From positions 1 to 49,015 of IMG/VR virus record IMGVR_UViG_3300033388_005071: a DNA stretch of 49,015 nucleotides; one strand, given 5' to 3'. The notes under the pieces are model-generated. The model ran no database searches. It was not told the origin of the DNA and worked only from the letters and a program-made list of their open reading frames with translations. Origin of the DNA: a virus. This document shows, piece by piece, positions 576 to 42,785 of this stretch. The translations under genes were made by a program, and so were the position numbers. Numbering within the stretch: position 1 is the stretch's first letter; every line of letters starts with the position of its first letter.

Positions 576-1337
576 TTACAGTTCATAATATCTTGTTATG
601 TATGTTTTTAATAATTTTATTTTCCTATCAATCAATCCTGGCGCCGAATTGATTTCAAAAACCCAACTAAGGTTAGTATCTTTTTCTATGCAACAATCTA
701 CTGCGCCAAAATCCAATCCGGAATTGGTGAGCGCTGCCCTCGCTAATAGCTTAAGTTCTCTATCCGTTTCTGATATTGGAAATCTTTTCATTATCCAGCC
801 GAATTTGAAACTTCTAACCATCTTTGGATAATCTACAAATTTATCCTTGTCCTGGTCTTCTTGTGTTTTTATATTAATCTCCATTATCTTATCTTTGAAA
901 ACGAATATCCTGAACTCATTTTCTTTCTCTATTATTTCTTGTAGATAGTATCCTTTCTTTGCGAATTCGATTACCTTATCTATATCTTCCAGAATATAAA
1001 ATCTCCTTCCTTTAAAATGATTTCTGGGACGAGCAATCACAGGCAGGTTTTCTGGTGTTATATTGAAAGAATTAAATAGTCTTGGTGCCCTAATCCCATC
1101 TGATATTAGTTTTTCCCTGGCGTATATTTTATCTGCGTTTTGATTTATCGCCCATGCTTGATTAATTATATGGTTTACTCTACCATATATTGGGGTAAAG
1201 GAATTTCCATACCTAAAGATTAAATCGAATTCACTATTTACACCCTCTGGTTTATTTGTGTAGGAACAATCCAGGGATTCTGCTATTTTCTGTGCAGTAG
1301 GATGTGTTTTTTTGCTTCCAATCACTAGGGTTCTCAT
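576..1337 (-). CDS. ATP-grasp ligase (RimK-like), 253 aa
   Basis: Predicted to use ATP to activate a carboxylate and join it to an amine. Visible ATP-grasp features: an N-terminal segment to about residue 65, nucleotide-binding basic residues in the PVIARPRNHFKGRR stretch (about 99-112), the adenine-loop stretch YYLQEII (131-136), the ENEFRIFVF strand (140-147), and the metal-binding end with DFGAVD (209-214) and FEINSAPGL (227-235; Glu228 and Asn230). Length is normal for a compact ATP-grasp. Its start overlaps the coiled-coil gene stop as ATGA, and it is the last gene of the leftward operon that also encodes a GS-fold amidoligase and a glutaminase. The substrate is unknown. Confidence 0.88.
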   Translation of the reverse strand: MRTLVIGSKKTHPTAQKIAESLDCSYTNKPEGVNSEFDLIFRYGNSFTPIYGRVNHIINQAWAINQNADKIYAREKLISDGIRAPRLFNSFNITPENLPVIARPRNHFKGRRFYILEDIDKVIEFAKKGYYLQEIIEKENEFRIFVFKDKIMEINIKTQEDQDKDKFVDYPKMVRSFKFGWIMKRFPISETDRELKLLARAALTNSGLDFGAVDCCIEKDTNLSWVFEINSAPGLIDRKIKLLKTYITRYYEL

Positions 1338-1690
1338 ATTCTTTCCGTGAGCTCTATGGATTTTATTTTTCCTTTTATTTCTCCCAGTTTGGAGAAATTT
1401 ATAACCATAATATAATCTATAATTGGTGCTGGTAGATACTGTTGTTTTTTTCCTTGATTCATTCTTCCATACGGAAAATGATTTTGGTACGGTTGTTTTT
1501 CTATTGAGGAGACGCCATCAAAATAATCCATACCAGATGAAATGGTTGTGATATCCGTTTCTACTAGCTCCATACTTCTCGTCAGAACTTCGTCAGTTGT
1601 TTCCAGTTCTTTTATTTTGTCCTTAATTTCTCTTAATTGTGGAAAAAGGGATTTCATTTGTTGTTCTAGTTTCTTTATCCTATCGTCCAT
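1334..1690 (-). CDS. Coiled-coil protein between glutaminase and ATP-grasp genes, 118 aa
   Basis: Residues 1-50 form a strong heptad pattern (LEQQMKSL...REIKDKIKEL), followed by a polar segment and a C-terminal IDYIMVINFSKL stretch that could be a beta strand. No known family is evident. It overlaps both neighbours (TAATG with the glutaminase stop, ATGA with the ATP-grasp start), so its product is probably made in step with the two enzymes. It may be a scaffold or the modified substrate; that is inference. Confidence 0.8.
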   Translation of the reverse strand: MDDRIKKLEQQMKSLFPQLREIKDKIKELETTDEVLTRSMELVETDITTISSGMDYFDGVSSIEKQPYQNHFPYGRMNQGKKQQYLPAPIIDYIMVINFSKLGEIKGKIKSIELTERI

Positions 1691-2424
1691 TATTTTTTCC
1701 CCGCTTTAAAGTTTATTTTCTCTAGCAATTTAATCTCCTTTTTCATTGTTGAGATACAATGAATTTCATGTTTTGGGAGACATAGCAAGTTTGGCTGAGA
1801 AGAAAAGATGTCCTTTGGGTTTATCATGAGCGATGTTCCTGTGAATTCTATTTTTGAAATTCCTATAAGTAACTGTTGTTTATGTATATAGGCTACATCT
1901 AGCGGATTTGTGTCTCGATAAATATAGATATTATCGCTAGCGAATGGTTTTAGTATAAGTGCCTTACTTCCATCTGTATCTTTTATTCCCTTATATATAC
2001 CGTTTTTTTCTACATTTGCAAGGATAAATTCCGAGTCCACTTCTCCCTTAAATTTGTATTTTGGTTTCTTTGTTAAAGCGGATACAACCCCATTGTGGGC
2101 GAGGATATAATTACTAGAATAGATTGGCATATTATTGTTATTATCATGCTGGCTTCCTTCTGTTTTATTCCTAGTATGCAGTATTATTAAATTTTCTGTC
2201 CCATTCAATTTTTTAGATTTCAGGCTTTTCTCAGTCACAATCATATCCCATAAATCACTGCTTTTTACCGGAGCTTTTAGGAGTGTCCTTGTGCCATCTT
2301 TTCTTTCATAATATATGCCTGAAGCATCAGTTCCTCTATCCTCCATTTCCTCCCATGTTTTCTTAATAAGGTCAAGGTCAATCTTTTTTTCTCCGTAATT
2401 AATAAAAAATCCTATTCCACACAT
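1690..2424 (-). CDS. Class II glutamine amidotransferase (NTN hydrolase), 244 aa
   Basis: Releases ammonia from glutamine for a partner ligase. The chosen start gives MCGIGFF, placing the catalytic Cys at position 2, to be exposed after Met removal; a reading five codons longer would bury it. The ribosome site GAAGGAG sits 6 nt before this ATG. Other class II landmarks are EDRGTDASG, LHTRNKTEG, ILAHNGVVS and VDSEFI in the usual order. It starts 1 nt after the amidoligase stop. The ammonia is probably used by the neighbouring amidoligase or ATP-grasp enzyme. Confidence 0.92.
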   Translation of the reverse strand: MCGIGFFINYGEKKIDLDLIKKTWEEMEDRGTDASGIYYERKDGTRTLLKAPVKSSDLWDMIVTEKSLKSKKLNGTENLIILHTRNKTEGSQHDNNNNMPIYSSNYILAHNGVVSALTKKPKYKFKGEVDSEFILANVEKNGIYKGIKDTDGSKALILKPFASDNIYIYRDTNPLDVAYIHKQQLLIGISKIEFTGTSLMINPKDIFSSQPNLLCLPKHEIHCISTMKKEIKLLEKINFKAGKK

Positions 2425-2425
2425 A

Positions 2426-4918
2426 TTATTCTCCTTCATTTGTATTGCTTGATATAAAATTATGTACTATTCTACCGGCTGCTGGTGGTCGTATACGGGA
2501 AGAATTGTACTGAGCGAATGCGCTTCCTGATTCAATCGAAATATTTGCGGTTTCTACTGGAGCTTCCCAACGAACTCCCACTTCCTCAGCATTAACTTCA
2601 CGATTAATTGGAAGTATTTGATAATCTTTAAACTGCATATAATTATGTTCGGTTATAAAATTATTAATTTCTTTTTTAACTTTGATAAGTAGCCTCCTCA
2701 CCATGTATTTTGAATATTTTTTATCAAACAACGCATACTTGCTATGTTTTATTTCTATTAGATTTGAATATAGCCCGTAAAGAAAAATGCTTTCTAAATC
2801 AATATTATTAAAATGTACCTCTGCTTCGTTATTTTTTTTCTTGGTATTCGGAATGATGAGTTTTCCTAACAAATATTCAGCATCATAATGGGTTAATAAT
2901 TCTTTAACAGCCAACACATCATTTCCCTTCTTTGCAGATACACAGAATTTAGACAAAAAATATGGATTCTCTGGTCTAACAACTTGACCTCCTACTGGGG
3001 ATTCATATAAATAAAGACACAGCGGAAAGTTTTTCCCGAATTTGGTTTTTTTAGCGTAAAGGGTTGTGCAGTATTCTGAGATTAAATCGGAATATTTCTC
3101 ATTAATCATTTCCTCAAGAGAACCGATATTTTCTATATCAATTATATTTCTATTTCCCGAAATATCTTCTTGAATAAAGAATTTATGTTCTACGCCTTTT
3201 CTGATGTTCCAATTATTAAGCATGTCTTGTAAGAAAATATTTTGTTTAGTACCGTAGAAATAATTTAATAATCTTGCTGTGTCTTTTTTTGATAGAAATT
3301 TATTATAATCTCTTTCACCTGGGGGGTCTTGATATATGAAGGAACCGCCATTCCTATAAAGTTCTATTATTTTTTCAGAAAGAGCAAGACACATTTTAAA
3401 TACCAACTCTGTCAATCCTTTGTCCGCTATAAATGATGGTAAACTCCTGTATTCAACTCCATGGTTTTTAAATCTAAATGAAGATGGGCGTTCATAATTT
3501 GAATAAGATATTTTTTCTTTGAATGATTTCGTCAGCCCACGAAGGAGAGTTATGGCTTCTCTTTGGATATTTCTTGAATGAATATTTATTTTTTCTACTA
3601 AGGTATTGCGATTCATTGTTCTTTCTACGTGTAAAGTTGAGAAATCTCTCCAACATCTAATTGCGCCTGTCATATTTATCTTCATTGGGTAATACAGGAA
3701 ATCATCCAGGAGTTTTCCTAGATATTTCATTGCATTTGTGTTTTGCATTTTCCGCCAGAATTCTCCACCAAAATGGACATGCCCACCGATTGAAACGCTG
3801 AAGCCACCACCTGTCTCAAAGAATACTGCTTCATTTGTTCGTGTTTCGCCAAGTGCTGTCTCTGTATCATTTTTTACTCTTTTTAGTAAGTACTCTATGT
3901 GATTTGTTATTACCATAGGATTTGTTGATGGAGTTGGTCTCAATTCCCCCGTTTCACTGTGTCCATCTAATCCAAGTTTTTTATCAACCAGGGAGGTAAA
4001 GATAGAATTAGCTGAAATTAATGGATAGGAAAGCATCGGAAGTTTCCTGTCTCTTCCGTTTTGTTTTTCACTATTTGCTGGGTATATATTAAATTCTGGG
4101 TCAGCTCCGATAATTGTAGAGAAATCTGAGATATCTTTTAGGAGTGATTTAGTTTTGACTGGTATCCATGTTGAAAATATTGCGTTAATCTCATCAACAA
4201 TTCTTTCTGCCGCTAACCTATCTATTCCTGATAAGACTATTTTTCTGTCAACATCTAAGAAGGCTTCCCTAATTACTGTTCCAGAGCTTCCTTCAACATG
4301 TATTTTTTGCATATTATATAGAAAGAAAAACATATTATTAGTTTGAATACCAATAAGGACTCTCTTTCCTGTATCCTCTCGTGCATTATCCATTAATGGT
4401 ATGTATGGCCCCTCTAATTTAACGTAAATTTTCTTGGTTACGTAACTTTTTATTTCAGTAGCTAAAACCTCAAGTAATGAATGAGCTGTTCTCTGTGTAC
4501 TTCTCTTCGCAAAATAAGTAGTGCACGTTGATTTATCTATTTCCTCTGATAATGTATAGAAATCATAAGATGTGTCCGACAGTGTGGTTCCATATATATA
4601 TCTGGCTAATTCCAGAAAGGTTATTGTTCTTATTATTGTTTTTTTATTTCCTCTTTTCTCAGAATTATTTTCTACAAAAGCCCCAATTCTCTTTACAGAT
4701 GAATCAAAATTTCTGAATCCGGCATTCCTATAGAAATCACCAAATTGCCCAGTAAATATTATTTTATTTTCCTTATCTTCATTAAAGAATTTTATTATGT
4801 CTGGGTTTGGCGATAGGTTTCCATATTCCCCGAATGAATTCACCCTACTTGTTCTCATAACTATCATCGGTGAAACCATTATGCCCTTTTCCCTGTCTAA
4901 AGCTGTCACTTTTTTCAT
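2426..4918 (-). CDS. Glutamine-synthetase-fold amidoligase (phiEco32-like COOH-NH2 ligase), 830 aa
   Basis: Predicted ATP-dependent enzyme that forms amide bonds. The catalytic module lies at about residues 265-500: GADPEF (271-276), LDGHSETGELRP (317-328), the hallmark GGHVHFG (378-384), and GVEYRSLPSF (487-496), which matches the metal- and ATP-binding Glu/His/Arg pattern of GS-like amidoligases. About 260 residues precede it and 330 follow it with no recognised domain. Start overlaps the zinc-ribbon gene by ATGA. Families of this kind are known from phiEco32-like phages next to class II glutaminase and ATP-grasp genes, as here. The target (cell wall peptide, small molecule or protein) cannot be read from the sequence. 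Confidence 0.88.
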   Translation of the reverse strand: MKKVTALDREKGIMVSPMIVMRTSRVNSFGEYGNLSPNPDIIKFFNEDKENKIIFTGQFGDFYRNAGFRNFDSSVKRIGAFVENNSEKRGNKKTIIRTITFLELARYIYGTTLSDTSYDFYTLSEEIDKSTCTTYFAKRSTQRTAHSLLEVLATEIKSYVTKKIYVKLEGPYIPLMDNAREDTGKRVLIGIQTNNMFFFLYNMQKIHVEGSSGTVIREAFLDVDRKIVLSGIDRLAAERIVDEINAIFSTWIPVKTKSLLKDISDFSTIIGADPEFNIYPANSEKQNGRDRKLPMLSYPLISANSIFTSLVDKKLGLDGHSETGELRPTPSTNPMVITNHIEYLLKRVKNDTETALGETRTNEAVFFETGGGFSVSIGGHVHFGGEFWRKMQNTNAMKYLGKLLDDFLYYPMKINMTGAIRCWRDFSTLHVERTMNRNTLVEKINIHSRNIQREAITLLRGLTKSFKEKISYSNYERPSSFRFKNHGVEYRSLPSFIADKGLTELVFKMCLALSEKIIELYRNGGSFIYQDPPGERDYNKFLSKKDTARLLNYFYGTKQNIFLQDMLNNWNIRKGVEHKFFIQEDISGNRNIIDIENIGSLEEMINEKYSDLISEYCTTLYAKKTKFGKNFPLCLYLYESPVGGQVVRPENPYFLSKFCVSAKKGNDVLAVKELLTHYDAEYLLGKLIIPNTKKKNNEAEVHFNNIDLESIFLYGLYSNLIEIKHSKYALFDKKYSKYMVRRLLIKVKKEINNFITEHNYMQFKDYQILPINREVNAEEVGVRWEAPVETANISIESGSAFAQYNSSRIRPPAAGRIVHNFISSNTNEGE

Positions 4919-5478
4919 ACTGTTCTCCTTTGATAAAATTTATCAATTATTATTCTTCCTTCTGTTCTTATAAAAGAATGTTTTGCATAACCTTTTACTA
5001 ACGTATGGAATCTCTCTGGTATTGTATCAATAATTCTTTTTCCTGTTGCCACCTTGTTTCCATCCAACCTTATTGTTGGCGGGCACATAAGAACAAATTT
5101 ACCGAATATTAAATAATATTTTATAAACATGTATCTATTTTTTCTCATTGATACTAACGAAACATTGCAAAATTCCTTTTCTTCTTTATTGAATTTTATG
5201 ATATCCTTTTTTTGAGATAGAACTGTCACACTCTTAGATTTGTCAAACACCGTATACCATTCCATCATATTTACAAAATAATTATTCAAAAAATCCTGGT
5301 TATCATATATGTTACTATATTCTCCACCGTAATTCCACCTGTCTTCGCTATATTCCCTCTGATGTTTTTCTGCGACTGTTTCAACATAAGAACATCTTGA
5401 GCACCAATAACCCCCCAACGCCTCATCGAATACTAAGGAATATTCGCTGCAATTTGGGCACTTTGAATTAAATCCCAT
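4915..5478 (-). CDS. Zinc-ribbon protein of amidoligase operon, 187 aa
   Basis: Two CxxC pairs near the N-terminus (KCPNCSEY and YWCSRCSY) make a zinc ribbon, followed by about 150 residues of mixed, aromatic-rich sequence with no family I recognise. A GGAGG site lies before the ATG, the start overlaps the upstream stop as TAATG, and the stop overlaps the amidoligase start as ATGA. The placement makes it a candidate partner of the amidoligase. Confidence 0.8.
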   Translation of the reverse strand: MGFNSKCPNCSEYSLVFDEALGGYWCSRCSYVETVAEKHQREYSEDRWNYGGEYSNIYDNQDFLNNYFVNMMEWYTVFDKSKSVTVLSQKKDIIKFNKEEKEFCNVSLVSMRKNRYMFIKYYLIFGKFVLMCPPTIRLDGNKVATGKRIIDTIPERFHTLVKGYAKHSFIRTEGRIIIDKFYQRRTV

Positions 5479-7482: not shown

Positions 7483-7629
7483 TTAATTCCTCCTTCTTTC
7501 CCTATAATCTATAATTAGAAATCCCCAACCAACCCCGCCGATAAGACCAGCGAAAAATGCCGGCATTATCTTAAAGTGAATCATTATACTCTGAGTGAAT
7601 AGAATAATAATAAATAATGCTGTTCTCAT
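7483..7629 (-). CDS. Small membrane protein, 48 aa
   Basis: Starts MRTALFIIILFTQSIM and has a second hydrophobic Gly-rich stretch (FFAGLIGGVGWGFLII), ending in a basic tail (DYRERRRN). AGGAG lies before the ATG; the start overlaps the previous gene's stop as ATGA. Two-helix membrane miniprotein of unknown role. Confidence 0.6.
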   Translation of the reverse strand: MRTALFIIILFTQSIMIHFKIMPAFFAGLIGGVGWGFLIIDYRERRRN

Positions 7630-7802
7630 TTTAATTCTCCTGTTTTGAAATTCTCTAACAAGGTATTAAATTTTTTGCTACAATATTTACATAAATCTAG
7701 GGAAATCGCAACACCATGTTCATCATGTATCTTTATCGTGCTTGCGTAATACTCTTTTTTTGTCATTTTTACCCCGCACCTATCACAAAAATATTTAACC
7801 AT
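7626..7802 (-). CDS. Zinc-ribbon miniprotein, 58 aa
   Basis: CDRCG near the N-terminus and CKYC about 30 residues later form a four-cysteine zinc site. The ribosome site AAAGGAGG precedes the ATG and the stop overlaps the next gene as ATGA. One of many small zinc proteins in this genome; function unknown. Confidence 0.65.
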   Translation of the reverse strand: MVKYFCDRCGVKMTKKEYYASTIKIHDEHGVAISLDLCKYCSKKFNTLLENFKTGELK

Positions 7803-10275: not shown

Positions 10276-10348
10276 GCCACTGTAGCTTAATTGGCAGAAG
10301 CCCTGTTTTGTACTCAGGAGATTGCGGGTTCGAGTCCTGCCAGTGGCT
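10276..10348 (+). tRNA. tRNA-Thr (probable anticodon UGU)
   Basis: Cloverleaf: acceptor GCCACTG/CAGTGGC, T8-A9, D stem GCTT/AAGC with GG in the loop, anticodon stem CCTG/CAGG, T stem GCGGG/CCTGC with loop TTCGAGT, discriminator T, no encoded CCA. The anticodon loop TTTGTAC gives UGU (Thr). Base 26 is missing and the 31-39 pair is T-T, so the anticodon call is less sure than the tRNA itself. It is the first element transcribed from the promoter at 10221-10250. Confidence 0.85.
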
Positions 10349-10361
10349 TCGGAGAAAATAA

Positions 10362-10375
10362 ATGAAAGCTCAAAT
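10362..10375 (+). repeat. 14-bp direct repeat, copy 2 (gene start)
   Basis: Exact copy of 10260-10273, forming the first codons of the DnaJ-type zinc protein gene. Confidence 0.85.
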
Positions 10376-10571
10376 TTGTCCTGTTTGTAACGGTAGCGGT
10401 AAATATGAAGGTAAGGAATGCCATGGTTGTGATGGTAAGGGATGGGTTAGTGTAAGTGGAGATTACCCGCCTTATTACCCTCGTCCTTATATTTATCCTC
10501 CTTGTGACCCATACCTAGATAGATGGATTACAACAACTGATACGATTATGGAGGAATATACAAGTGTTTAA
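10362..10571 (+). CDS. DnaJ-type zinc-finger miniprotein, 69 aa
   Basis: Begins MKAQICPVCNGSG and has CHGCDGKGW, i.e. two CxxCxGxG-type motifs as in the cysteine-rich domain of DnaJ, followed by a Tyr/Pro-rich tail. A GGAG lies before the ATG, inside the 14 nt between tRNA and gene. The first 14 nt duplicate 10260-10273, where the same codons lie 9 nt from the -10 box; the original gene was probably leaderless before the tRNA came in. Confidence 0.8.
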   Translation: MKAQICPVCNGSGKYEGKECHGCDGKGWVSVSGDYPPYYPRPYIYPPCDPYLDRWITTTDTIMEEYTSV

Positions 10572-22333: not shown

Positions 22334-24831
22334 TGGGACTAAATGTTTCTCAATATTTTAATTTTCACGGCTTCCCGTTTGGACTAGACTGGACTAGCGC
22401 AGTAGACGCAATAAAATTAGGGTTTTTAAAGACAGCTACAAATGTAGACCTTACTGGGACTGGCGAGGTAGCCAAGAGGCTTGGGTGCTCTAAACTCTAC
22501 CCTACTGCATATACCGCAAATAAAGAGATAACGGCGGTACACTCATATCAATCCCCATATGGTACGGATTATCTTCTTGCAGCATGTGATACCAAAATAG
22601 GGTATTATGATAGCGGATGGAAGGATGTAGTAACTGGTCAGACTGCTGATAAACAATATAGCTTTGTTAATCATCGTGGGAACTGTATTGGCGTTAATGG
22701 AAAAGATGCTAATTTTATAATAAGGGATGATGATGGTACTATAACATCATATACAATGGGCATAGCGCAGCCAACTGTAGCCCCAACAATGGCAGACAAT
22801 AACCCAGTTACACCGGCTTGTTTATCCGAAGATTTTGATTATGCTGATACCGCTGCTCTTACAGCTGGGGGATGGACGGATGCAGATAGTGGTGGGGTAT
22901 CGGAATTATCAGGAACAGACCCTAATTCTAAACAGGGTTCAGATGGGGATAGTAAATATCTACGTCTCTATGGTTCAGCGGATGGCTCTGTTGATATAGC
23001 CAAAAGGACGAGGATAATAACTGTACCATTAGAATATTCTATGAAAATAGAGTTACACTTTGATAAGGCAGGGTATATTCCGCCTGCGTGGGGTGGTGGT
23101 TTTTATGTTGATGTGTATAATAGCGTATACCGGCTGCAAGTGGTTTTCTGTGGTTCTTACGTATGGATGCACAATGGTTTAAAGTGGGTAGAGATATGGA
23201 AACCAGCCGGAAATAATATCGAGGATACATGGTACATATTTGATTTTAAAGTTACTGGCACCGGTGTAGACCTTATAGTAAATGGACAACTTATAGGGAA
23301 CACCCCAATTGATAATCCGAATACCAGCGTAGATGGACGCATAGACTTAGCATGTTATACAAAGGATGCTACTTATGGTCAGGGTGATGTATATGTTGAT
23401 AACGTTACAATAACTGCCACTGGTGATGAAAATGATACTAGTGGGCTAACCGGTTTGTTTGCTTATGCTTACGCCTTTAAAAGAAGTGACGAGGAATTGA
23501 TAGGAAATTATAAATCCTCCATGGACGCTACTGATACCGAAGACCAGAAGATATTGATATCTAATAGCTCTGTTAATATATCTTATACAAAATCAGCTGA
23601 TACTAAGGTTGATAAAATTGTTATTTACAGAACCCTAAATCTTATAAATGAAGATAATGAGACTACTCAATATTATAAAGTTACCGAAGTCAGCAACGCA
23701 ACATCTACCTATGAGGATGACACACCAGACAATGACCTAACTACCTTAGCCAGTTCTTCTAATACGCTTCCACCAAAGGCTACATATGTAGCGATACATA
23801 AAGATAGGATTTTCTACCTTAATTGTCCAGATGAGGACGATGGTGGTAGTCTATTTATGTTCAGTAAATCAGGTAAATCCGAGGCTTGTCCTTCCTCGAA
23901 TTATCAATATTTCGATAAGCAAGACGGTGAGGATATTACTGGCGGGGCGTCTATAGGTGATTATTTTGTTATATTTAAAAGAAATAAGATGGCTGTTATG
24001 GAGGGTAGTTTTGAGGAATGGTACACAGTATCATATACTATAGGGTGCATAGCACCAAAGTCCATTATAGTCGTGGGAAATGTAGTGTACTTCCTTTCTG
24101 AGGAGGGGTGGAAATCTTTTGATGGTGTTAATCTTATGGATATAAGCACCAAAATGCAGTATGCTGTAGACCAGGGTTATTTAGATACAACTACCGGAAC
24201 AGAAATACATGGCGCTTATAGTACACCGAAGAAGAAATTTGTCTGGATAAGCGACAAGAGTGGGTCACGGTATGGGTATGTTGCTCATTCCCTCGAGAGA
24301 CTAAGGCAGGACGTTTCGCAGGGGGAAGCTCCTGGATTGTTGTTTGGGTGGACAGTGTACGAATATGACTTTGATGATACCGACTATTTTACCACTATAG
24401 CGAGTTATAAAGATGGAAGCGGCGTTACGCAATTGGCTGCCGGAACGAGCAAGGGGTTCATATATAAGTTAGACAATACAGAGCAGGATAACGCAAGAAA
24501 CTATACATTTACGATAGAAACCGGATGGTCATCGCTGAATACACCAGCAGCTATAACTAAAATACAGAGAAAGATAACTCTTCAGTATGCCCTTGGCTCT
24601 ACTGGAGATAATAGTATTACGCTGAAGGCATATGTAAATAATAGTGATACAGAAGTAGACTCCATAGCCATATCCACTGAAACTGGGGCAAGCGATAGGA
24701 ATAGGTATTCACTCAACTTACATACTACTGGGACTGGTGAGTTATTCAAATACCATATCTCCGGTACATCAGAGGATAACTTCAGTATAACAGATTTGGG
24801 GATTGCATATAGGATGCTGGGTATAAGATAA
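22333..24831 (+). CDS. Tail nozzle/stopper-like protein with internal LamG-like domain, 832 aa
   Basis: Begins GLNVSQYFNFHGFPFGLDWTSAVDAIK, like phage proteins that open with a 'short tail' beta domain. Residues about 165-360 form a jelly-roll/LamG-like insert (SEDFDYAD... ending VDNVTITATGDEND). The rest is beta-propeller-like (DRIFYLNCPDEDDGGSLFMFSKSGK, SEEGWKSFDGVNLMDIS). Coupled to the adaptor gene and the fibre gene by TAATG overlaps. Probably the tail tube or nozzle. Confidence 0.6.
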   Translation: MGLNVSQYFNFHGFPFGLDWTSAVDAIKLGFLKTATNVDLTGTGEVAKRLGCSKLYPTAYTANKEITAVHSYQSPYGTDYLLAACDTKIGYYDSGWKDVVTGQTADKQYSFVNHRGNCIGVNGKDANFIIRDDDGTITSYTMGIAQPTVAPTMADNNPVTPACLSEDFDYADTAALTAGGWTDADSGGVSELSGTDPNSKQGSDGDSKYLRLYGSADGSVDIAKRTRIITVPLEYSMKIELHFDKAGYIPPAWGGGFYVDVYNSVYRLQVVFCGSYVWMHNGLKWVEIWKPAGNNIEDTWYIFDFKVTGTGVDLIVNGQLIGNTPIDNPNTSVDGRIDLACYTKDATYGQGDVYVDNVTITATGDENDTSGLTGLFAYAYAFKRSDEELIGNYKSSMDATDTEDQKILISNSSVNISYTKSADTKVDKIVIYRTLNLINEDNETTQYYKVTEVSNATSTYEDDTPDNDLTTLASSSNTLPPKATYVAIHKDRIFYLNCPDEDDGGSLFMFSKSGKSEACPSSNYQYFDKQDGEDITGGASIGDYFVIFKRNKMAVMEGSFEEWYTVSYTIGCIAPKSIIVVGNVVYFLSEEGWKSFDGVNLMDISTKMQYAVDQGYLDTTTGTEIHGAYSTPKKKFVWISDKSGSRYGYVAHSLERLRQDVSQGEAPGLLFGWTVYEYDFDDTDYFTTIASYKDGSGVTQLAAGTSKGFIYKLDNTEQDNARNYTFTIETGWSSLNTPAAITKIQRKITLQYALGSTGDNSITLKAYVNNSDTEVDSIAISTETGASDRNRYSLNLHTTGTGELFKYHISGTSEDNFSITDLGIAYRMLGIR

Positions 24832-27800
24832 TGTCTTTAGATATTAAGAACGCCATGATAAAGTATCGGATACCCGATATGCCTATCTATCATAATTTTG
24901 AGGGGCTAAAGAATACCCTGAATAATGTAATAGATATATTAAATGGTTCTAATACCGATAGTGGAACCTTTAGTAATTCAGATGAGTTGGTTAAAGTTGG
25001 CTCTGGCGGTACTGCTGATTATCTAAGTGAGCTTGATTTTAGGAGAACAAAAGCTGGTCATATAAGAATCTCAGCTGATGTGAGCTCCCCATGGAAGAGG
25101 TATGGTAGTTCCATATATTACAAAAAAGGTAACGTTGGTGTAGGACTTTCCGACCCTCAGTATGATTTTGATATTGCTGGCGATATAAACCTCACCGGTT
25201 ATCTTTATATGGATAGTGAGGCGTGGATACAAAATCCCGCCGATAGGAACACCTTTATTGGTGAGGGGGTGCGGGAAACCCCTGGCGCTGCGGGCACTAA
25301 TGATTATATTTATTTAGCATATTCAGCCAGTAGCGAAGTAAGGAAATATTGGGCCGATAGCTTAGTTTATGAAGATGTGGTTGGTTCAAGCGGTTCCGGT
25401 GATGGTGAATTTAGTAATGTTTATGGAGTCTGTTCAGATGGAACTCATTTTTATACCATTGAAAATGTAAATGATAGAATACAGAAATTCTTGTGTTCCG
25501 ATTTATCTTTTGTAGCAAAAGCAGGTTCCGGTGGTAGCGGAGATGGTCAATTTGACAATGCACAGGGTATTTGTACTGATGGTACATATTTGTATATAGC
25601 TGATACAAACAATAGTCGTATCCAGAAATTTAATTGTTCTGACTTGGCTTACGTTGCCCAAGTCGGCTCAGCAGGTTCAGGAGACAACCAGTTTAGTGTA
25701 CCAGAAGAAGTTTGCACAGATGGTACTTATTTTTATATAGCGGATTCAGGTAATCATCGTATTAAAAAGCATCTTTGTTCTGACTTGGCATATGTTGCTA
25801 AGATTGGTTCTTCTGGCTCGGGTGATGACCAATTTTTAAGCCCACATGGTGTTGGCACAGATGGTACATATGTTTATGTGGTTGATAATAACAATAGGGT
25901 TAATCAACGGAATTGCTCAGACTTGACTTATGTATCTAAAATTGGAACCACTGGCTCAGGGGATGACCAATTTGAAAATCCAAAGCGAGTAACCGTAGAT
26001 AATACTGGAACATATTTCTTTGTTTCGGATGATAGTAATAAGAGAATAGTAAAGCGTAAATGCTCTGATTTGGGTTATATTAATGAAGTAAGTGTTCCCG
26101 CCATTGGGTCTTATGGGTTAGGATTTTCAGGTGAAATAGATACTGACTTTTTAGACAACACGATAACTGGTTACAATGCTGGTAATGTTCTCTCCACTGG
26201 TGATAGAAATAGTCTTTATGGTGCTTATGCTGGCGACCATTTACTCGGCGGTAAGGATAATGTTTTTGTCGGCTACCAAGCTGGTGACACAGCCACCTCT
26301 GCAAAACAATGTATAGTTATAGGCTCTACGGCTGATATAAGCGCAACGCTTGTTAATTCTATGGCAATAGGTTATGGTGCTTCTGCTTCTACAAGTAATA
26401 AAATATCTATCGGAAACTCAAGTATTGAAGCTTTGGAGTTCCCATGGATGACCACGGCAGGGATGCTTATAAATAGTGGTGCTGGCGCAATTACAAGCCT
26501 TACTGACCCAGGGGCGGATAGGATTGCCTTCTGGGATGATTCGGAGACTTCAGTTGCATGGCTTACAACGGGTAACAGTATAGCCATAACCACTACCACT
26601 TTAGATACTATCCAGGATATAAGGACTACTGCAAGCCCAACATTTAATGCACTCACCTTAACGAACACATCAGAACCAGCGTTGTCTATATCCATGACTT
26701 CTATTACCGGTACAGATAATCAAGCCATAGACATAACCTCTGTTGAGGCTTTAGACGCTAATGAGCATTGGACTGGCATAAGGGTTAAGCCAGATGGTTT
26801 AGACCCAGGTGGGGCTGACACACGTATCCGTGGCCTTGCTCTCAATATGAGTGGGATAGACCCTGGTGCTTATGATATGGACTTGGAAGCACTGCGCATT
26901 GTTATGCCAAATAACGGTTATGATGCTATAAGAATAAAAGAGGGTAAGGTTAGACATCTCCAGACTATAACCAGTACAGCCTTTCAGGCGACTACAGCAC
27001 ACGATATTACAATAGATGCTTCGGCGCAAGTTTCGACATCTGAATCACATGCTCTTGACGTTGCTCTCGCGAGTACGCTTGGCGGCGGGCATGTTGCAGC
27101 GGTAGGGACACACGATGGGATTGACCCAATACACCAACACATAGGAACATTTACTTCGTTTGGTGCGACCTATGCTGGGAGGCTGACAAGTGGCCCCACC
27201 TACACAGATGATATAGATGATAAGGATATTTGGGTGGCTGCGAGTGATTCAATTTTAGTCGGGCACACTGCTAAATTTGATGAGATAGAATTAGTCTTTG
27301 GTATTCCAGCGACAAAGGATTGCTTCTTAAAGTTTTACTTCTACCAGACTACTACTGGGTGGGTGCAGTTTTATCCTGAAGATGACACAGATGGTGGGCG
27401 ACAGGATGGTATTATAAGGTATTCAGGCGATGACTTAACCGACTGGCAGAGTGATTATGACCCAGGAACAGGTGCGGATGCTGGCTACTGGATAAAAATA
27501 CTAAGGAATAGAACCAATGACCCAGGGACGGTACACTTGACTACTGGGAAATATCTGATAGCGACCCAATACTTCTGGGATAAGAGTGGGAACGTTTCTA
27601 TAAATGCCTTGACTTTAGGTACGGTTGCTGCTGCTGGTGAAGACACAGATAAATTCTTGGTTCTTGATGGCTCTGGGAATGTGGATTATAGGACTGGGGC
27701 TAATGTGTTAGCGGATATAGGTGGGGCGGCGGCTTCACATGCAATGTCTACCCATAGCGATGAGGATACTTATAATATTTCGACATCTGGAACCTTGGGT

Positions 27801-28277
27801 GCCGGTGTCGGCACTTTAACAAGTCTGACCTTAACCAATGGTCAAATAGCCTTCCCTGCAACAGCCGTGCCGAGTGCAGACCCGAATACCTTTGATGATT
27901 ATGAGGAAGGGACATGGACGCCAGAATATACGGGGTCTACAGGCGCAATAGGTGCGACTGCATATTCTTCACGTGCTGGAATATATACTAAAATAGGGAA
28001 TACCGTAACGATAAATATGTCTATGGCATTGACAAATAATGGTGATTGGACTGGTTATGTAAAAATATTAGGCGTTCCGTTTTCAATAGCGAATAACTAT
28101 GTGGGCGTAGTAAACCCTAAAAATATAACTTACGATGGTGAAGTGGTTTTAGTTACAAGTGGAGCCATTTTTTATCCGACTGTTGTTAAAACAGCGGCAG
28201 CAAGAGTTAATTTACTAACATCTGGTGTACCCGATAATGGAGCTTTGATAGCTTCAGTTGCGGCTACATTAAATTAA
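24831..28277 (+). CDS. Tail fibre/tailspike with inserted NHL beta-propeller, 1148 aa
   Basis: Residues about 1-140: N-terminal attachment part. Residues about 150-425: six NHL-type blades, five complete (each ends CSDLxYVxK and contains TDGTYxYIADxxNxRIxK) plus one formed with the start. Residues about 430-530: trimeric-fibre head repeats (TITGYNAGN, SLYGAYAGD, VFVGYQAGD, MAIGYGASA). The C-terminal half is beta-rich, with the EEGTWTPEYTGSTGAI stretch typical of fibre tips. The NHL blades replace the interval between DRNTFIGEG and the first repeat. Likely host-receptor binding. Confidence 0.78.
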   Translation: MSLDIKNAMIKYRIPDMPIYHNFEGLKNTLNNVIDILNGSNTDSGTFSNSDELVKVGSGGTADYLSELDFRRTKAGHIRISADVSSPWKRYGSSIYYKKGNVGVGLSDPQYDFDIAGDINLTGYLYMDSEAWIQNPADRNTFIGEGVRETPGAAGTNDYIYLAYSASSEVRKYWADSLVYEDVVGSSGSGDGEFSNVYGVCSDGTHFYTIENVNDRIQKFLCSDLSFVAKAGSGGSGDGQFDNAQGICTDGTYLYIADTNNSRIQKFNCSDLAYVAQVGSAGSGDNQFSVPEEVCTDGTYFYIADSGNHRIKKHLCSDLAYVAKIGSSGSGDDQFLSPHGVGTDGTYVYVVDNNNRVNQRNCSDLTYVSKIGTTGSGDDQFENPKRVTVDNTGTYFFVSDDSNKRIVKRKCSDLGYINEVSVPAIGSYGLGFSGEIDTDFLDNTITGYNAGNVLSTGDRNSLYGAYAGDHLLGGKDNVFVGYQAGDTATSAKQCIVIGSTADISATLVNSMAIGYGASASTSNKISIGNSSIEALEFPWMTTAGMLINSGAGAITSLTDPGADRIAFWDDSETSVAWLTTGNSIAITTTTLDTIQDIRTTASPTFNALTLTNTSEPALSISMTSITGTDNQAIDITSVEALDANEHWTGIRVKPDGLDPGGADTRIRGLALNMSGIDPGAYDMDLEALRIVMPNNGYDAIRIKEGKVRHLQTITSTAFQATTAHDITIDASAQVSTSESHALDVALASTLGGGHVAAVGTHDGIDPIHQHIGTFTSFGATYAGRLTSGPTYTDDIDDKDIWVAASDSILVGHTAKFDEIELVFGIPATKDCFLKFYFYQTTTGWVQFYPEDDTDGGRQDGIIRYSGDDLTDWQSDYDPGTGADAGYWIKILRNRTNDPGTVHLTTGKYLIATQYFWDKSGNVSINALTLGTVAAAGEDTDKFLVLDGSGNVDYRTGANVLADIGGAAASHAMSTHSDEDTYNISTSGTLGAGVGTLTSLTLTNGQIAFPATAVPSADPNTFDDYEEGTWTPEYTGSTGAIGATAYSSRAGIYTKIGNTVTINMSMALTNNGDWTGYVKILGVPFSIANNYVGVVNPKNITYDGEVVLVTSGAIFYPTVVKTAAARVNLLTSGVPDNGALIASVAATLN

Positions 28278-32234: not shown

Positions 32235-35200
32235 ATGGCAAAAGACAGATTTAAGTTCCCATCTTCTGGTGATTATTCATTTGCTACATTTCCAAGTAAT
32301 GCATATCTACCATACTATGAGAGGAGAAAGAAAGAAAAGGAGGAGAGGGATAGGGATAGGTTTCTTGGGAAGATTAAAGCCGGAATGGATGTTGATTTGC
32401 CTTCGGGTATGCAAATTGGTGGCATACATATTCCAGAAGAAGAGCAACTGGGGTTCTTAAAAGCTAAGAAAGACTTCTCTGTTCCCGACAACTTTAAATT
32501 CCTTGATGAGCTTCCTATTGCACAGCGACAACTGGGTGTGAAGACTGGCGAGGCTATTACGCAAGCCATGTATGGTTATGGTAACACGGCTGCCTTGGGA
32601 TTACCAGCTGCCCTTGGTGTCACAATGCCGGAACCTGAGTCAAGTACAGGTCAAGTGGCTCGTGCCATTGGGAGTTTTGCGGGTTTTCTAAAAACTCCAG
32701 TGAAGATAGGGCGTGTTGCAGCTGGGTACGCAACTAAAAAATTTACAGGTGCACTAGCTCAGAAAGTCAATGCCATAAGGAACTTAAAAACAGCAGAGAG
32801 TGTTGCTAACGCCAGCTCCCTTATAAGAAAAGCACAGATGGTAAAGAGGGGGTTTAAATATGGTGCCGGAGGGGCTCTTATGCTAGGTACCGCTGAGGTT
32901 GCTGCTGATATAGCGCATCCAAAACAGTATCTAAATAACTTTGCCCATGGTGCTAAGATAGGAACTATTTTTGGGGCTATGGGAATGGCTCATATAGTCA
33001 AGTATCCTGCCTTATCGATGGTTGCCAGACAAGCTGGTGGTAGGGCATTGATGGCAGTAGCAAACGAATACCCAGAGGGCTTTGCTTCTAAAGAGAATCT
33101 TGGTCAATTGGTGTACTCTGAAGCATTGAATACATTTTTCTTATGGAAGGGTGTTACCCCAGATATGATATTGAAGGGGAAGATACCCAAGAAACACAAG
33201 AAGATATATGACAAGATAACTGAACAAACCGAAGCGCATAATAGGGAAATAATAAATAAATTCAAGATGTCTGAACCCACTATCAAGTTAGGAAAAGATG
33301 TTACATGGGATAAAGTGACAGCCAAAATGCATCTTAGGGATATATGGTATGAACCCGATACTCTCAGGGAGAACGAGGTTAAGGGGTTTGAGGATACCCT
33401 AAAGGCTGTAGATATAAGCAAGAAGGGACTTAGTGTATCTGTTGAGTGGGATAGTAAACGCCAGAGGTATATAACTAAAACAAGTGGGCAGTTATTAGAA
33501 GCCTTGAAAAGAAAGAATGCTATCGAAATAAAAGAAGGAAGGAAACCTACCCTGGAACTGAATGTTACTATAGATAAGCTCAAACCAGAGCAGGCAAATA
33601 TACTTCCAACACCGTTGGAGGTTGCATCTTTATTTGGAGACAACTCTATAACATGGGAGACTATTGATAAGATAAGCTCCACCCAGTATTTCCTGTACGA
33701 TGTAAAGAAGAAAACAATGCGCCCAGTCTTTCCAGAAGAGGCAGACTTCTCACCCAAGAAGGGAAAGGAGAGGTTCAATCCAGACGAAATCCAGTTCGAA
33801 ATTGAGAAAAGGGGTGGGGCGAAGGAGATAATAGCAACTGGAGCTGGGAAAAATGTAAGAAACCTGGTTAAGCAGTCACCGGATACGCTTATAAGAAGAG
33901 AGACGCAGCTACATGAACGGATAAAGGAACTCGATACAGAAATTAATAGAGAATCAACAAGAAGTTACGAAAGGGATGAGTATATAAAGGAACGTGATAA
34001 AATCAATGCTGAATTGAAGCGGATGAAAAGACCCGCAGATAAAAAAGTAACACCAGCAAAGCAAATTAAGAACTTACTAAAGAAAAAGGCTACCTTCCTA
34101 TCACAGAAAAGAGCATATATGGATGGGATAAAGGATGTAAAGAACTTTATAAGGCTAATCACGGCAGAGCAGAAGTTAGAGAAACAGAAGGTTACAGACA
34201 GGAATAGTAAGCAGGGAATTAGATATCTAAAGGGACAAAAAGTTCTGTTGGAGAATCAGGTAACCCTAAGCAGGGCTGAGTATCAGTTAGATAAGTTAAA
34301 GGTCGAACTCAAGAAGGTAACAACGAGGCTAAGGAATCTGAAGAAAGTTGAGAAGGGTAAAAAACCAGAGTCAACTGTCTTTGCAGATGCCAAGAGAATG
34401 ATTAATGATATTTACAAAACACCCAAGAGAACGCTGCCTATAGAGACATCGGAACTACTAAGGGCACGCTATGGAAAGCTGGGGATGGCGGTGGATTATG
34501 ATACATTCTTAAAGATGGTGATTGAGCACCCTGGAGATACAACATTAGCAGATTTGTATACTATTGAGCACAATTTTAATGCGCTTGAGCATATGGGTAG
34601 GGGTGAAAGGCTTCGTCACCTCATGGGTAAAACTATTATACGCTGGGGCTTACATGAGAAAGACCCAAGCGGCGACTTTGCTGAGAAACAGAGAAAAGAA
34701 GATGCTTACTACGCCAGGAAACGAGAGAAGACCTGGGATAATGCACGTGATTATGTAAGAAAGCAAAAGGGGAGATATTACTCGCCACTGGCTTATATAT
34801 TACGCCCAAAGGCTCCGATTATATTAGAGAACATAAGACAATGGGCTGGTAGGGTAGAGCGTAAGACTGGAATCCCATTTCATCCAGTAGTAAGGAGAAT
34901 CCTCGCTGGTTCCGCCAAGAGAGGGCATCACTTAACAAGGTTGACGGGAGCGTTAGGGGAATTTGCGGAGGCAAATAATGAGCTCCAGAACGCCGTGAGG
35001 GTGCACTATAGTAATTTATACCTTGGAAAAAATGTATATCCAGAGAGATATTCCCCAGAATTAACGAAATATATAGAAACTATTGACACTATAATGAAGG
35101 AGATGGCTCCAGTGGTAAGACGATATCGGCATCTAATGTGGATACAAGATGTTGAATTTGGTCACAAGAATGTTAAGGTGTATAGAAATCAGGATAACCC

Positions 35201-37175
35201 AGAGGTTCGTAATCTATTATTAAGGGGTATGGAGGCTAAGGCACAAGCTGATATAGAAGGCAAGCCTGAAGTATACGAAGCGTGGTTAGAAGGCGAGGGG
35301 AAGAGCGTTGGTATAATCAGAGAAGGAGCATACTTGCCAGAGTTTATGATAAGGGGAAAAGATGTTCCCCTAAGCAAGCAAGAGATGATGCGCCATATTA
35401 ATGTGATGGGGACAACCCATCTTCAATCCCGCAAGGTGTTTGATGGAAAGGATATAGCCGAGATAGGCTTAGCCGAGAGCGACATAATGAGCCCCAATTT
35501 AAACAAGCAAATATATGGATATGTCAATCAGGTGCTCAATGTTCAGTACCTAAAGGATGCTTTCGATGCTTTTGATGCTATTACTAGCAAGATTAGTAAA
35601 CACCTCGATGCAGCTAAACCAAAGGCAGGAGGCAAGGGCTCGCCTGAATCGAAAGCACTATCTACTGGGATGTACCTCAAAATATTTGCTGATAGGGCTA
35701 AGGGATACCCGATACAGGGTGGTCTTATATCACAGTACCTAAAGAAAACACAGTCAATGTTCTTCAGGGCACTTACAGTTAGACCATACCTTTGGTTAAG
35801 GAACCTATTTCAACCAATTGTTACTGTTCCGCACAAGGAAATAATGTTTGACCCTCGGTTCACTACTCTAAATGAGAACTTTAAGTGGGAAAAGATACCT
35901 GAAGCGATACGTGAAAAGTATGTTGAAGAGGGAGTAGACCAGAGGGATTCCTTTAATCATAGCTTCTTGGCACTAGAGGCAACAGCCGGAGTAAAGAAGG
36001 TTCCGGTACTGGGATGGATATTCAAAGCTGCTGAGAAGGTAGGGGGAATATATTCATTTACAGATAGTATCAATAGAAGAAGAGTCTTTAGGAGAACCTT
36101 TCATAGAAGTAAATATTATATGCAGGAATATAACAAGGGCAATATAAATGCGAAGACAATGGAGCAGAGGCTTGGGATAGACAAGGTAGACCCTAACGAA
36201 AGAAAGATTATAAGGAATTTAATTACGGATAAGAACCTTGATGATGCCTCCTTCGAGATGGGTCGGTGGATGACCGACAATTCTCAGTGGAAATATTCTC
36301 GTGTAGAGAAGGGGCTATGGGAACAGACCGCAGAGGGAGAGACATGGAGCAACCTACTGACCTGGACAAAAGGGATAGTGCACTCTATGGTAACGGCAAC
36401 AGAGAGAATAACTGAGGGAATAGGCACAAAGAATCCCGCAATGGTACGTGGGGGAGCTGCTACTATAGGGGGATACTTTTTAGCTGGTACAGTAGCTAAC
36501 GAAATACTTCAGGCTATATCAGTATCTCATGGTAGTAAGTACAAGAACTATGGGGCAGACGCATTCATGTGGTCTTTCGGTGGCGTGACGGCTGAGATAG
36601 TACGAGACTTCACTGATAATATAGCTGGTTTAGTCACTGCGTTTGATGGCACAAAAGAGGAACAGAAAACTGCCTTAAATAATGCGCTGAGTATGGTAGA
36701 TAATATCGGGATAAGACAACTTACTCCATTTGCTAAACAAGCTCTGTCATTAGTTGAGGCGATGACGAACCGCAGTTATATATCTCCGGTAAGAGATGCC
36801 CTCACTCATGCAACATCAGGGTATGGAAAAGATGCTAAGTACGTAGAAAGAACTAACTTAGAGGCTGTAGCCCATGCCATTCTCTCTAGAGACCCTAACA
36901 AAACTGCTACGGTTAGGAGAGAAACATATAGGAAGTTGCAGGAGATGAGACGGAAGCTAGCAACGTCTAACAACCCGATATTCAGGACATACCTTAAGGC
37001 TAGGATAGAAAAGTACACATATATGAATGATTTATTTCAGAGGTACACCCCCTACCGCATATGGGAAACAGAACAGCGGAAGGAACGTGAGGAAAGAAAT
37101 AAAAGAATAAGCATGGAGAGCACTAGCTATGGATATAAACAAGAGCTAGAGGCGTATAGAAGGAGAAGACAGTGA
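32235..37175 (+). CDS. Large internal virion/ejection protein, 1646 aa
   Basis: Longest gene of the genome, starting right after the previous stop. Residues about 150-300 are Ala/Gly-rich with possible membrane-active helices (GALMLGTAEVAADIA, IGTIFGAMGMAHIVK). About 530-660 form long charged coiled coils. The C-terminal 450 residues include hydrophobic segments (GGAATIGGYFLAGTVANEILQAISV). I see no clear lysozyme or transglycosylase motif. It fits the large core protein that forms the ejection conduit; a polymerase or toxin-like function is not indicated. Confidence 0.65.
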   Translation: MAKDRFKFPSSGDYSFATFPSNAYLPYYERRKKEKEERDRDRFLGKIKAGMDVDLPSGMQIGGIHIPEEEQLGFLKAKKDFSVPDNFKFLDELPIAQRQLGVKTGEAITQAMYGYGNTAALGLPAALGVTMPEPESSTGQVARAIGSFAGFLKTPVKIGRVAAGYATKKFTGALAQKVNAIRNLKTAESVANASSLIRKAQMVKRGFKYGAGGALMLGTAEVAADIAHPKQYLNNFAHGAKIGTIFGAMGMAHIVKYPALSMVARQAGGRALMAVANEYPEGFASKENLGQLVYSEALNTFFLWKGVTPDMILKGKIPKKHKKIYDKITEQTEAHNREIINKFKMSEPTIKLGKDVTWDKVTAKMHLRDIWYEPDTLRENEVKGFEDTLKAVDISKKGLSVSVEWDSKRQRYITKTSGQLLEALKRKNAIEIKEGRKPTLELNVTIDKLKPEQANILPTPLEVASLFGDNSITWETIDKISSTQYFLYDVKKKTMRPVFPEEADFSPKKGKERFNPDEIQFEIEKRGGAKEIIATGAGKNVRNLVKQSPDTLIRRETQLHERIKELDTEINRESTRSYERDEYIKERDKINAELKRMKRPADKKVTPAKQIKNLLKKKATFLSQKRAYMDGIKDVKNFIRLITAEQKLEKQKVTDRNSKQGIRYLKGQKVLLENQVTLSRAEYQLDKLKVELKKVTTRLRNLKKVEKGKKPESTVFADAKRMINDIYKTPKRTLPIETSELLRARYGKLGMAVDYDTFLKMVIEHPGDTTLADLYTIEHNFNALEHMGRGERLRHLMGKTIIRWGLHEKDPSGDFAEKQRKEDAYYARKREKTWDNARDYVRKQKGRYYSPLAYILRPKAPIILENIRQWAGRVERKTGIPFHPVVRRILAGSAKRGHHLTRLTGALGEFAEANNELQNAVRVHYSNLYLGKNVYPERYSPELTKYIETIDTIMKEMAPVVRRYRHLMWIQDVEFGHKNVKVYRNQDNPEVRNLLLRGMEAKAQADIEGKPEVYEAWLEGEGKSVGIIREGAYLPEFMIRGKDVPLSKQEMMRHINVMGTTHLQSRKVFDGKDIAEIGLAESDIMSPNLNKQIYGYVNQVLNVQYLKDAFDAFDAITSKISKHLDAAKPKAGGKGSPESKALSTGMYLKIFADRAKGYPIQGGLISQYLKKTQSMFFRALTVRPYLWLRNLFQPIVTVPHKEIMFDPRFTTLNENFKWEKIPEAIREKYVEEGVDQRDSFNHSFLALEATAGVKKVPVLGWIFKAAEKVGGIYSFTDSINRRRVFRRTFHRSKYYMQEYNKGNINAKTMEQRLGIDKVDPNERKIIRNLITDKNLDDASFEMGRWMTDNSQWKYSRVEKGLWEQTAEGETWSNLLTWTKGIVHSMVTATERITEGIGTKNPAMVRGGAATIGGYFLAGTVANEILQAISVSHGSKYKNYGADAFMWSFGGVTAEIVRDFTDNIAGLVTAFDGTKEEQKTALNNALSMVDNIGIRQLTPFAKQALSLVEAMTNRSYISPVRDALTHATSGYGKDAKYVERTNLEAVAHAILSRDPNKTATVRRETYRKLQEMRRKLATSNNPIFRTYLKARIEKYTYMNDLFQRYTPYRIWETEQRKEREERNKRISMESTSYGYKQELEAYRRRRQ

Positions 37176-38674: not shown

Positions 38675-38885
38675 AATAATCCTCCTTATAATTTGTTGCC
38701 CTATCTTCATTAAGGGCTATGAATATCTTCAGGGCTCTAATAAACCCAGAAGATAAATTCTTACTTGTATACCATTGCATCTTAGTTAATATTTGATGCT
38801 CACCTTTCCCAATATACACCACAACATCATCTTGACTCTTGTGTTCGGGGTGCTTATACTGGATATGATGCTTCTGGATTATCAC
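38649..38885 (-). CDS. Hypothetical protein, about 78 aa
   Basis: GTG start chosen because AGGAGG lies 6 nt before it; an ATG six codons upstream (38903) is possible but weaker. Sequence: VIIQKHHIQYKHPEHKSQ, then VVVYIGKGEHQILTKMQW and a helical end. Not recognised. Overlaps both neighbours. Confidence 0.55.
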   Translation of the reverse strand: MIIQKHHIQYKHPEHKSQDDVVVYIGKGEHQILTKMQWYTSKNLSSGFIRALKIFIALNEDRATNYKEDYFGNKKIKS

Positions 38886-39060
38886 CTTTCTCCTCCTCTT
38901 CATTGTCCTGGTAGGCTGCTATTAGCTCAAGTAGCTCGGCTCTGCCCTCGGTTAGCTTATCAATGGTTTTCTGCATCCTATTAACACAGTCCCCACACAT
39001 AACAAAGTCACCTGTATTAATGTTATAGTCACAAAAATCACATTTAATTTGTACGCTCAT
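38854..39060 (-). CDS. Zinc-ribbon/coiled-coil protein, 68 aa (paralogue set)
   Basis: CDFCD and CGDC pairs about 15 residues apart, then a helical coil (NRMQKTIDKLTEGRAELLELIAAY). Same layout as the proteins at 42591-42785 and 42782-42991, so the three look like paralogues. Function unknown. Confidence 0.7.
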   Translation of the reverse strand: MSVQIKCDFCDYNINTGDFVMCGDCVNRMQKTIDKLTEGRAELLELIAAYQDNEEEEKGDNPEASYPV

Positions 39061-42263: not shown

Positions 42264-42594
42264 TCCCTTCCTCCTCACTTTCCTTTAATATTGCCTCTAT
42301 TATTTCTTGCCTATCCTTCTCTGGATATATATTGTTACCCTCAACGGCATCTAACAGTATCTGTCTCTTCTCTTCCTCTGTTCCAACATATGACCTTACG
42401 GTGGAGCGATAGGCTTCCTTCATAGTGACCCCCTTGTTATTCATTAGCCATTCAACTTCACGGGCAAGCCATAAGGGGCAGACCAGGTTACAACCAAAGG
42501 CTTTCTTGCAACCAAAGTCTCTGTCCATTCTCTTGCAGAATTTATCCATCTCCCTTGGCTTGAGTAGGATATCTGATTTTCTTTTGTAACTCAT
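42250..42594 (-). CDS. Cysteine-containing hypothetical protein, 114 aa
   Basis: Four cysteines in the middle (FCKRMDRDFGCKKAFGCNLVC) could bind a metal; the C-terminus is acidic and helical (EEEKRQILLDAVEGN). Not recognised. Weak ribosome site; overlaps the upstream stop. Confidence 0.65.
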   Translation of the reverse strand: MSYKRKSDILLKPREMDKFCKRMDRDFGCKKAFGCNLVCPLWLAREVEWLMNNKGVTMKEAYRSTVRSYVGTEEEKRQILLDAVEGNNIYPEKDRQEIIEAILKESEEEGNEKA

Positions 42595-42785
42595 TTCATT
42601 ATTTGCGCTTCTGGTTCTGGTGTATTTTCCTTTAACCCTTCTATTTCCTCTTCTGCGTTTGCTAACATTTCTTCTAGATTACTTATTCTTTCTCGCAAAG
42701 TATCAAAACAATCGAAACAGAAAACTGTACTTCCTTCCGTTATTGTAGCGCCACAGTTGTCACAATTAATATCTAAATCAATCAT
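42591..42785 (-). CDS. Zinc-ribbon/coiled-coil protein, 64 aa (paralogue set)
   Basis: CDNCG and CFDC pairs, then a coil (RERISNLEEMLANAEEEIEGLK). Paralogue of the adjacent gene and of 38854-39060. AAGGAG site; ATGA overlap with the upstream stop. Function unknown. Confidence 0.7.
   Translation of the reverse strand: MIDLDINCDNCGATITEGSTVFCFDCFDTLRERISNLEEMLANAEEEIEGLKENTPEPEAQIMK

Follow-up and report, generated by a model that had tools for sequence, protein, structure and literature searches.

The window (the whole stretch of 49,015 bases of virus DNA that was analysed) derives from a virus of bacteria and has genes for the large terminase, portal protein, major head protein and a DnaB-like helicase. 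ORF calling on the window confirmed the positions of the five minus-strand ORFs listed in Table 1. The first-pass annotation had described these as five overlapping leftward genes. The row and its strand were borne out and adjacent genes share 1-4 bases, with the exception of the GATase gene, which begins 1 nt past the ligase stop once its start is corrected. A Shine-Dalgarno sequence, AAGGAG, sits within the annotated GATase start, and the next ATG is codon 6 at position 2424, in the context TAA-T-ATG-TGT. Initiation there gives a protein that begins MCGIG, with Cys at position 2, and an MCGI start is found in both sister phages as well. As the motif is internal and the next ATG yields Cys2 as in the sisters, the true GATase start is probably 2424 and not 2439.

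Table 1. Genes of the leftward row in the window
Feature	Position	Strand	Basis
Zinc-ribbon protein, 187 aa (first gene of the proposed module)	4915..5478	-	ORF call
PF14395 GS-fold COOH-NH2 ligase, 830 aa	2426..4918	-	ORF call, Pfam, AlphaFold, Foldseek
Class II GATase, annotated as 249 aa (2439-1690); corrected to 244 aa	1690..2424	-	ORF call, Shine-Dalgarno, MCG start
Coiled-coil protein, 118 aa	1334..1690	-	ORF call, heptad contrast
ATP-grasp ligase, 253 aa	576..1337	-	ORF call, phrog_2599, AlphaFold, Foldseek

Promoter and terminator scans returned sites no more numerous than in shuffles. The sole tRNA gene, tRNA-Thr(TGT) at 10276-10348, separates the leftward region from the rightward structural genes. 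The structural region includes a 1148-aa protein with NHL-type beta-propeller repeats (24831-28277) and a 1646-aa protein without a PHROG match (32235-37175). A 420-aa ORF at 47261-48523 matched no Pfam family and contains a FEFINEP stretch, which we take to recall glycoside-hydrolase active sites. DNA hypermodification was considered and set aside, as no base-modification gene was recognised among the scanned window proteins.

The 830-aa protein matched PF14395 in Pfam (E 8.8e-9; 35.4 bits against a cut-off of 25), and its two motifs were found as originally quoted, GADPEF at residues 271-276 and GGHVHFG at 378-384. All eight residues that are invariant in an alignment of 46 sequences of relatives are kept (D273, E275, D318, E325, H380, H382, E489 and R491). 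The PF14395 domain covers approximately residues 268-560, with an N-terminal flank of 1-267 and a C-terminal flank of about 561-830, both without family assignment. As the ligase domain reaches residue ~560, the C-terminal flank is ~270 residues long and not 330 as initially estimated. In the AlphaFold (AF2) model the core (~270-560) had pLDDT values mostly of 70-97 and the flanks mostly below 50. Foldseek matched this model to YbdK (1r8g) and PafA (4bjr), each with a probability of 1.00, and also to glutamine synthetases; the search against viral models gave no match. TM-scores were low (0.2-0.4) because the poorly modelled flanks and long segments are counted in, and the fold call was therefore based jointly on the match probabilities, Pfam and the conserved residues, all of which agree on the GS-fold amidoligase first proposed. 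Whether the flanks are a fused second amidoligase (270 + 190 + 370 = 830) was also considered, but this was unsupported: neither PF12224 nor the profile of the ~186-aa protein of related modules was matched, and no confident fold was obtained.

The ATP-grasp protein matched phrog_2599 (E 8.3e-22) and no Pfam family, and its AF2 model had a pLDDT of 94.9. The closest structures in Foldseek were ArgX-LysW (3vpb, 1e-14), RimK (5zct, 4e-13) and the graspetide ligase PsnB with its precursor; D-Ala-D-Ala ligases were also among the matches, with RimK and ArgX closer. A profile built from 55 sequences matched RimK (4iwx) at 8e-20 as well as the peptide ligases PsnB, MdnB and CdnC, and the residues K70, R103, E141, R143, K157, D214, E228 and N230 of the window protein are invariant among the 55 relatives. 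Curated family thresholds were not reached: TIGR00768 (RimK, NCBIfam) scored 22.4 bits against a cut-off of 143.4, and RimK, D-Ala ligase and MptN family scores in hmmscan were far under their cut-offs. The protein would work like a RimK alpha-L-glutamate ligase but is not filed as a member of that family. Both structural predictions were checked for absence of the anticipated folds, and the GS fold and the ATP-grasp fold were each found.

The GATase matched GATase_6 in Pfam (E 1.2e-7). When it was aligned to the glutaminase domain of GFAT1, the Cys, HTR..T.G, HNG and downstream Asp were all conserved, which together with the corrected start upholds the assignment as a class II (Ntn) glutaminase with Cys2. 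The pocket predicted from these residues is compatible with two roles, supplying ammonia or cleaving off a gamma-glutamyl group. The window GATase is 45% and 37% identical to those of the sister phages and, like them, does not have the C-terminal zinc ribbon that most phage relatives carry.

The remaining two proteins of the row were characterised as accessory candidates. In the coiled-coil protein, the N-terminal heptad contrast was 0.82, a value reached in 0 of 300 shuffles, so that the coiled coil recognised at first reading lies beyond chance. The 187-aa protein has an N-terminal TFIIB-type zinc ribbon (CPNC-x15-CSRC) that matched Zn_Ribbon_TF at E 4.6e-6, under the curated cut-off, followed by ~150 residues without assignment. 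A tblastn search with this protein against a set of fetched loci found no relative, and no zinc ribbon is present in the 126-aa and 149-aa ORFs that lie upstream of the ligase in the sisters. A CxxC...CxxC motif occurs in 8 of the 67 non-overlapping ORFs of the window. As the gene does not recur in the sisters and such motifs are frequent in the genome, its membership is unproven, and the gene may lie next to the module without being part of it. Two identities proposed for this protein were rejected. It is not the ~186-aa partner of the classic modules (hhalign probability 0.4%), nor a LysW-type carrier, which needs a C-terminal Glu; the window protein ends in RRTV, and only 1 of 42 zinc-ribbon GATases of relatives ends in Glu. 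Small ORFs with zinc-ribbon motifs were observed at 274-489, 7626-7802, 10362-10571, 38854-39060, 42591-42785 and 42782-42991, many for a 49-kb phage.

The sister phages are L016 (IMGVR_UViG_3300033149_003144, 47 kb) and L013/L009 (IMGVR_UViG_3300012009_000018, 46 kb), with TerL proteins 56% and 54% identical to that of the window. They came from alignment-based scans; searching viral contigs with one protein at a time (ligase, ATP-grasp or GATase) found nothing. Both encode, in the same order, a big ligase (672 or 770 aa), a GATase (270 or 271 aa), a coiled-coil-type protein and an ATP-grasp (258 or 286 aa). Of the five-gene order sought in other phages, the four genes from ligase to ATP-grasp were thus recovered and the zinc-ribbon gene was not. 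The proteins encoded between GATase and ATP-grasp are 137-162 aa (L016) and 177 aa (L013) long; the heptad pattern is strong in L016 as well and weaker in L013, where 26 of 300 shuffles reached it. No sequence homology was detectable among the three coiled-coil proteins, and the ligase flanks were likewise not alignable. The coiled-coil partner is therefore conserved in position and N-terminal type only, and comparison of the sequences indicates that accessory parts change quickly around enzyme cores that are kept.

Gene trees grouped the window, L016 and L009 together for the GATase (support 0.99) and the ligase (0.81), and placed them in one ATP-grasp clade (0.95) with L011, L012 and L017. 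Grouping in all three trees is consistent with a unit inherited together. Among 14 contigs found via the terminase, the module was present only in the two sisters. Four others, of 34-42 kb, do not have it, and the module is therefore accessory; the shorter contigs of this clade are uninformative on its absence.

We compared the row with the phiEco32-type COOH-NH2 ligase clusters to which it had been linked from the outset, and the link held: the same three enzyme families are adjacent and co-directional. In phiEco32 the gene order is PF14395 (gp86), a 205-aa protein, PF12224 (gp84), GATase (gp83), two small proteins and ATP-grasp (gp80). This classic gene set has also been described in LUZ24-like phages (PMC3890496) and reported from mycobacteriophage Marvin (PMC10580990), and we found it likewise in PSP30 (LUZ24-like), Zobellviridae and phage ctOsX528. 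One pattern scan of IMG/VR gave 459 confirmed stretches encoding a relative of the window ATP-grasp. Across 81 IMG/VR ATP-grasp loci, a GATase was present in 65, PF14395 in 51, PF12224 in 46, a cyclotransferase in 29 and a class I GATase-type protein in 24, and most of the GATases end in a zinc ribbon. The cyclotransferase of classic modules is GGACT (PF06094), and the class I GATase-type protein is Peptidase C26 (PF07722) by Pfam in the four named phages checked. Where a viral ATP-grasp locus had at least 5 kb on each side, GATase and PF14395 were both present in 39 of 52 cases. PF12224 is not strictly defining, as 11 of these 52 loci have ligase and GATase and do without it. In the window and contigs G001 and G002, no ORF matched PF12224 at E 0.01, and the gamma-glutamyl cyclotransferase and C26 hydrolase, frequent but not universal in classic loci, were absent. 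A control for gamma-glutamyl gene density gave 0 in 134 kb, too small a sample to be informative. The window also had no match to the ~186-aa protein that lies between the two ligases of classic modules, and neither sister genome has a recognisable gene for any of these four proteins.

Several of the surveyed loci were unusual in content. L012 (IMGVR_UViG_3300009503_000105) has a reverse-transcriptase-like ORF with a YADD motif directly upstream of the related ATP-grasp (L012:7069-8810); neither a GATase nor a ligase was detected in the vicinity. In each of the large phage contigs L020 and L041, a single ATP-grasp has a pair of GATases and a pair of PF14395 ligases nearby, and L034 encodes three PF14395 proteins.

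A genome scan recovered PF14395 proteins of Heliobacteria and Brevibacillus. The heliobacterial proteins (L120, L121, L123, L128 and L129) have a fused N-terminal domain that matches the phage ATP-grasp profile (hhalign 96.9%, E 1.7e-10); Pfam did not annotate this domain as ATP-grasp in the two proteins scanned. This domain is missing its middle part, and other residues stand in the alignment in place of the catalytic Asp, Glu and Asn, so that it looks like a non-catalytic remnant. As the two proteins are encoded side by side elsewhere, their fusion suggests joint action of ATP-grasp and PF14395. The Heliobacterium chlorum gene (L121) adjoins SpoVG and GlmU, and the Brevibacillus gene (L126:6724-8765) lies directly downstream of cotE (spore coat) and upstream of mutS; no GATase was found within 8 kb of the heliobacterial or Brevibacillus genes. 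Only by association, these neighbours hint at proteins of the spore or envelope. Separately, contig L119 (4 kb), assigned to a Micrarchaeota MAG but probably a phage fragment, has at its end a PF14395 domain with 33% identity to that of the window; a zinc-ribbon ORF lies ~2.4 kb upstream.

Going by sequence and structure models, the locus encodes three predicted enzymes whose active-site signatures are intact; their genes are closely packed in a single leftward row and recur together. We consider it probable that the module as a whole combines a glutaminase with a RimK/ArgX-like and a YbdK/PafA-like ligase, as a reduced variant that makes amides on a host target. The ATP-grasp enzyme would phosphorylate a peptide or protein carboxylate and attach an amino acid there, probably a glutamate-like one, and the GS-fold ligase would form a second amide with ATP, probably a gamma-glutamyl or isopeptide bond. 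The GATase would supply ammonia from glutamine or remove a gamma-glutamyl group, and the coiled-coil protein and large ligase flanks may scaffold the enzymes or recognise the substrate. The most likely product is one or two glutamine-fuelled, ATP-driven amide bonds on a host target (a protein, a peptide or an envelope precursor); changing this target during infection would benefit the phage, for example against superinfection or host defence. A gamma-glutamyl linkage is suggested because classic modules carry C26 and cyclotransferase genes, both linked to gamma-glutamyl bonds; for the window this chemistry would be transferred from relatives, as the window and its sisters have neither gene. 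The tight stop-start coupling may reflect a single complex, and the three enzymes could also catalyse separate reactions.

More specific readings differ in what is modified. A genuine possibility, if short of an even chance, is that the two ligases place a peptide tag on a host or phage protein, as RimK does on S6 or PafA on Pup substrates. The nearest structures do modify proteins or peptides (ArgX-LysW, RimK-RpsF, PsnB-precursor and PafA-Pup), and CotE, which the Brevibacillus PF14395 gene adjoins, is a spore-coat protein; however, no acceptor protein is recognisable, and the LysW-type C-terminal Glu is missing in the window zinc-ribbon protein and in 41 of the 42 zinc-ribbon GATases. Modification of the host envelope, in which the ligases would add amino acids or amides to surface structures or to precursors of peptidoglycan and so keep other phages from adsorbing, appears somewhat doubtful to us. 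Two later papers (PMC10580990, PMC11318856) credit Iyer et al. 2009 with this hypothesis, stated for phiEco32 as cell-wall modification and exclusion of superinfecting phages. D-Ala-D-Ala ligases among the ATP-grasp matches and GlmU and SpoVG beside a heliobacterial relative agree with it, but RimK and ArgX are structurally nearer than D-Ala ligases, and classic modules occur in phages of several Gram-negative genera and are reported from Marvin, hosts whose envelopes are very unlike. The open literature searched held no experiment on the function of phage amidoligase modules, including any in support of the envelope proposal, and the function of the classic module is predicted only.

We judge it unlikely that the module yields a free compound, either a small molecule or a short peptide, with an inhibitory effect on host metabolism or defence. 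Sets of GS-fold, ATP-grasp and GATase enzymes produce small molecules elsewhere, C26 and GGACT enzymes act on small gamma-glutamyl compounds and both families are present in classic modules, and the ATP-grasp profile also matches PsnB, MdnB and CdnC. Against this, no transporter or precursor-peptide gene was recognised and none of the five proteins matched a defence-system family in PADLOC-DB. It appears improbable that the module works as a self-contained machine for amide tagging, with the coiled coil and fast-evolving flanks forming a scaffold that recognises a specific host protein and each phage of the clade tagging a different target through the conserved three-enzyme core. That the genes are unrelated neighbours without a common pathway is very improbable. 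In its favour, the sisters do not keep the zinc-ribbon gene and the region is rich in short accessory ORFs, but co-occurrence in dozens of phage loci, the order kept in the sisters and the bacterial ATP-grasp-like/PF14395 fusion disfavour it for the three enzymes; the zinc-ribbon protein alone may be such a neighbour.

Phages commonly carry amidoligase modules, and the reduced version in the window (one GS-fold ligase, one GATase and one ATP-grasp) is a simpler system for learning what such enzymes make. The bacterial fusions beside spore and envelope genes offer a second place to seek the substrate.

Among known systems, the carboxylate-amine ligases YbdK and PafA have the GS-type core fold of the window ligase in common with it but are only 10-15% identical, with no match at the sequence level. 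RimK, LysX and ArgX share the fold and the ATP-grasp residues of the window protein, at 14-18% identity in structural matches. The heliobacterial and Brevibacillus proteins have the same ligase domain in a chromosomal setting, and the heliobacterial ATP-grasp domain is degenerate and shortened. L016 and L013/L009 resemble the window in enlarged ligase and gene order, whereas the upstream zinc-ribbon gene of the window is absent from them. For the phiEco32/LUZ24/Zobellviridae module, the best phage ATP-grasps are 22-29% and the best GATases 24-32% identical to those of the window. Membership in that module is partial: PF14395, the class II GATase and the ATP-grasp are present, whereas the second amidoligase (PF12224), the ~186-aa protein, the GGACT cyclotransferase, C26 and the zinc ribbon of the GATase are missing. 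The first-pass annotation had not noted the absence of PF12224, the cyclotransferase, C26 or the GATase zinc ribbon. Compared with the phiEco32 type, the ligase has 830 aa instead of ~268 and the GATase 244 instead of 390-676, and a coiled-coil gene lies between GATase and ATP-grasp. The window module is a divergent, reduced variant of the known phage amidoligase module.
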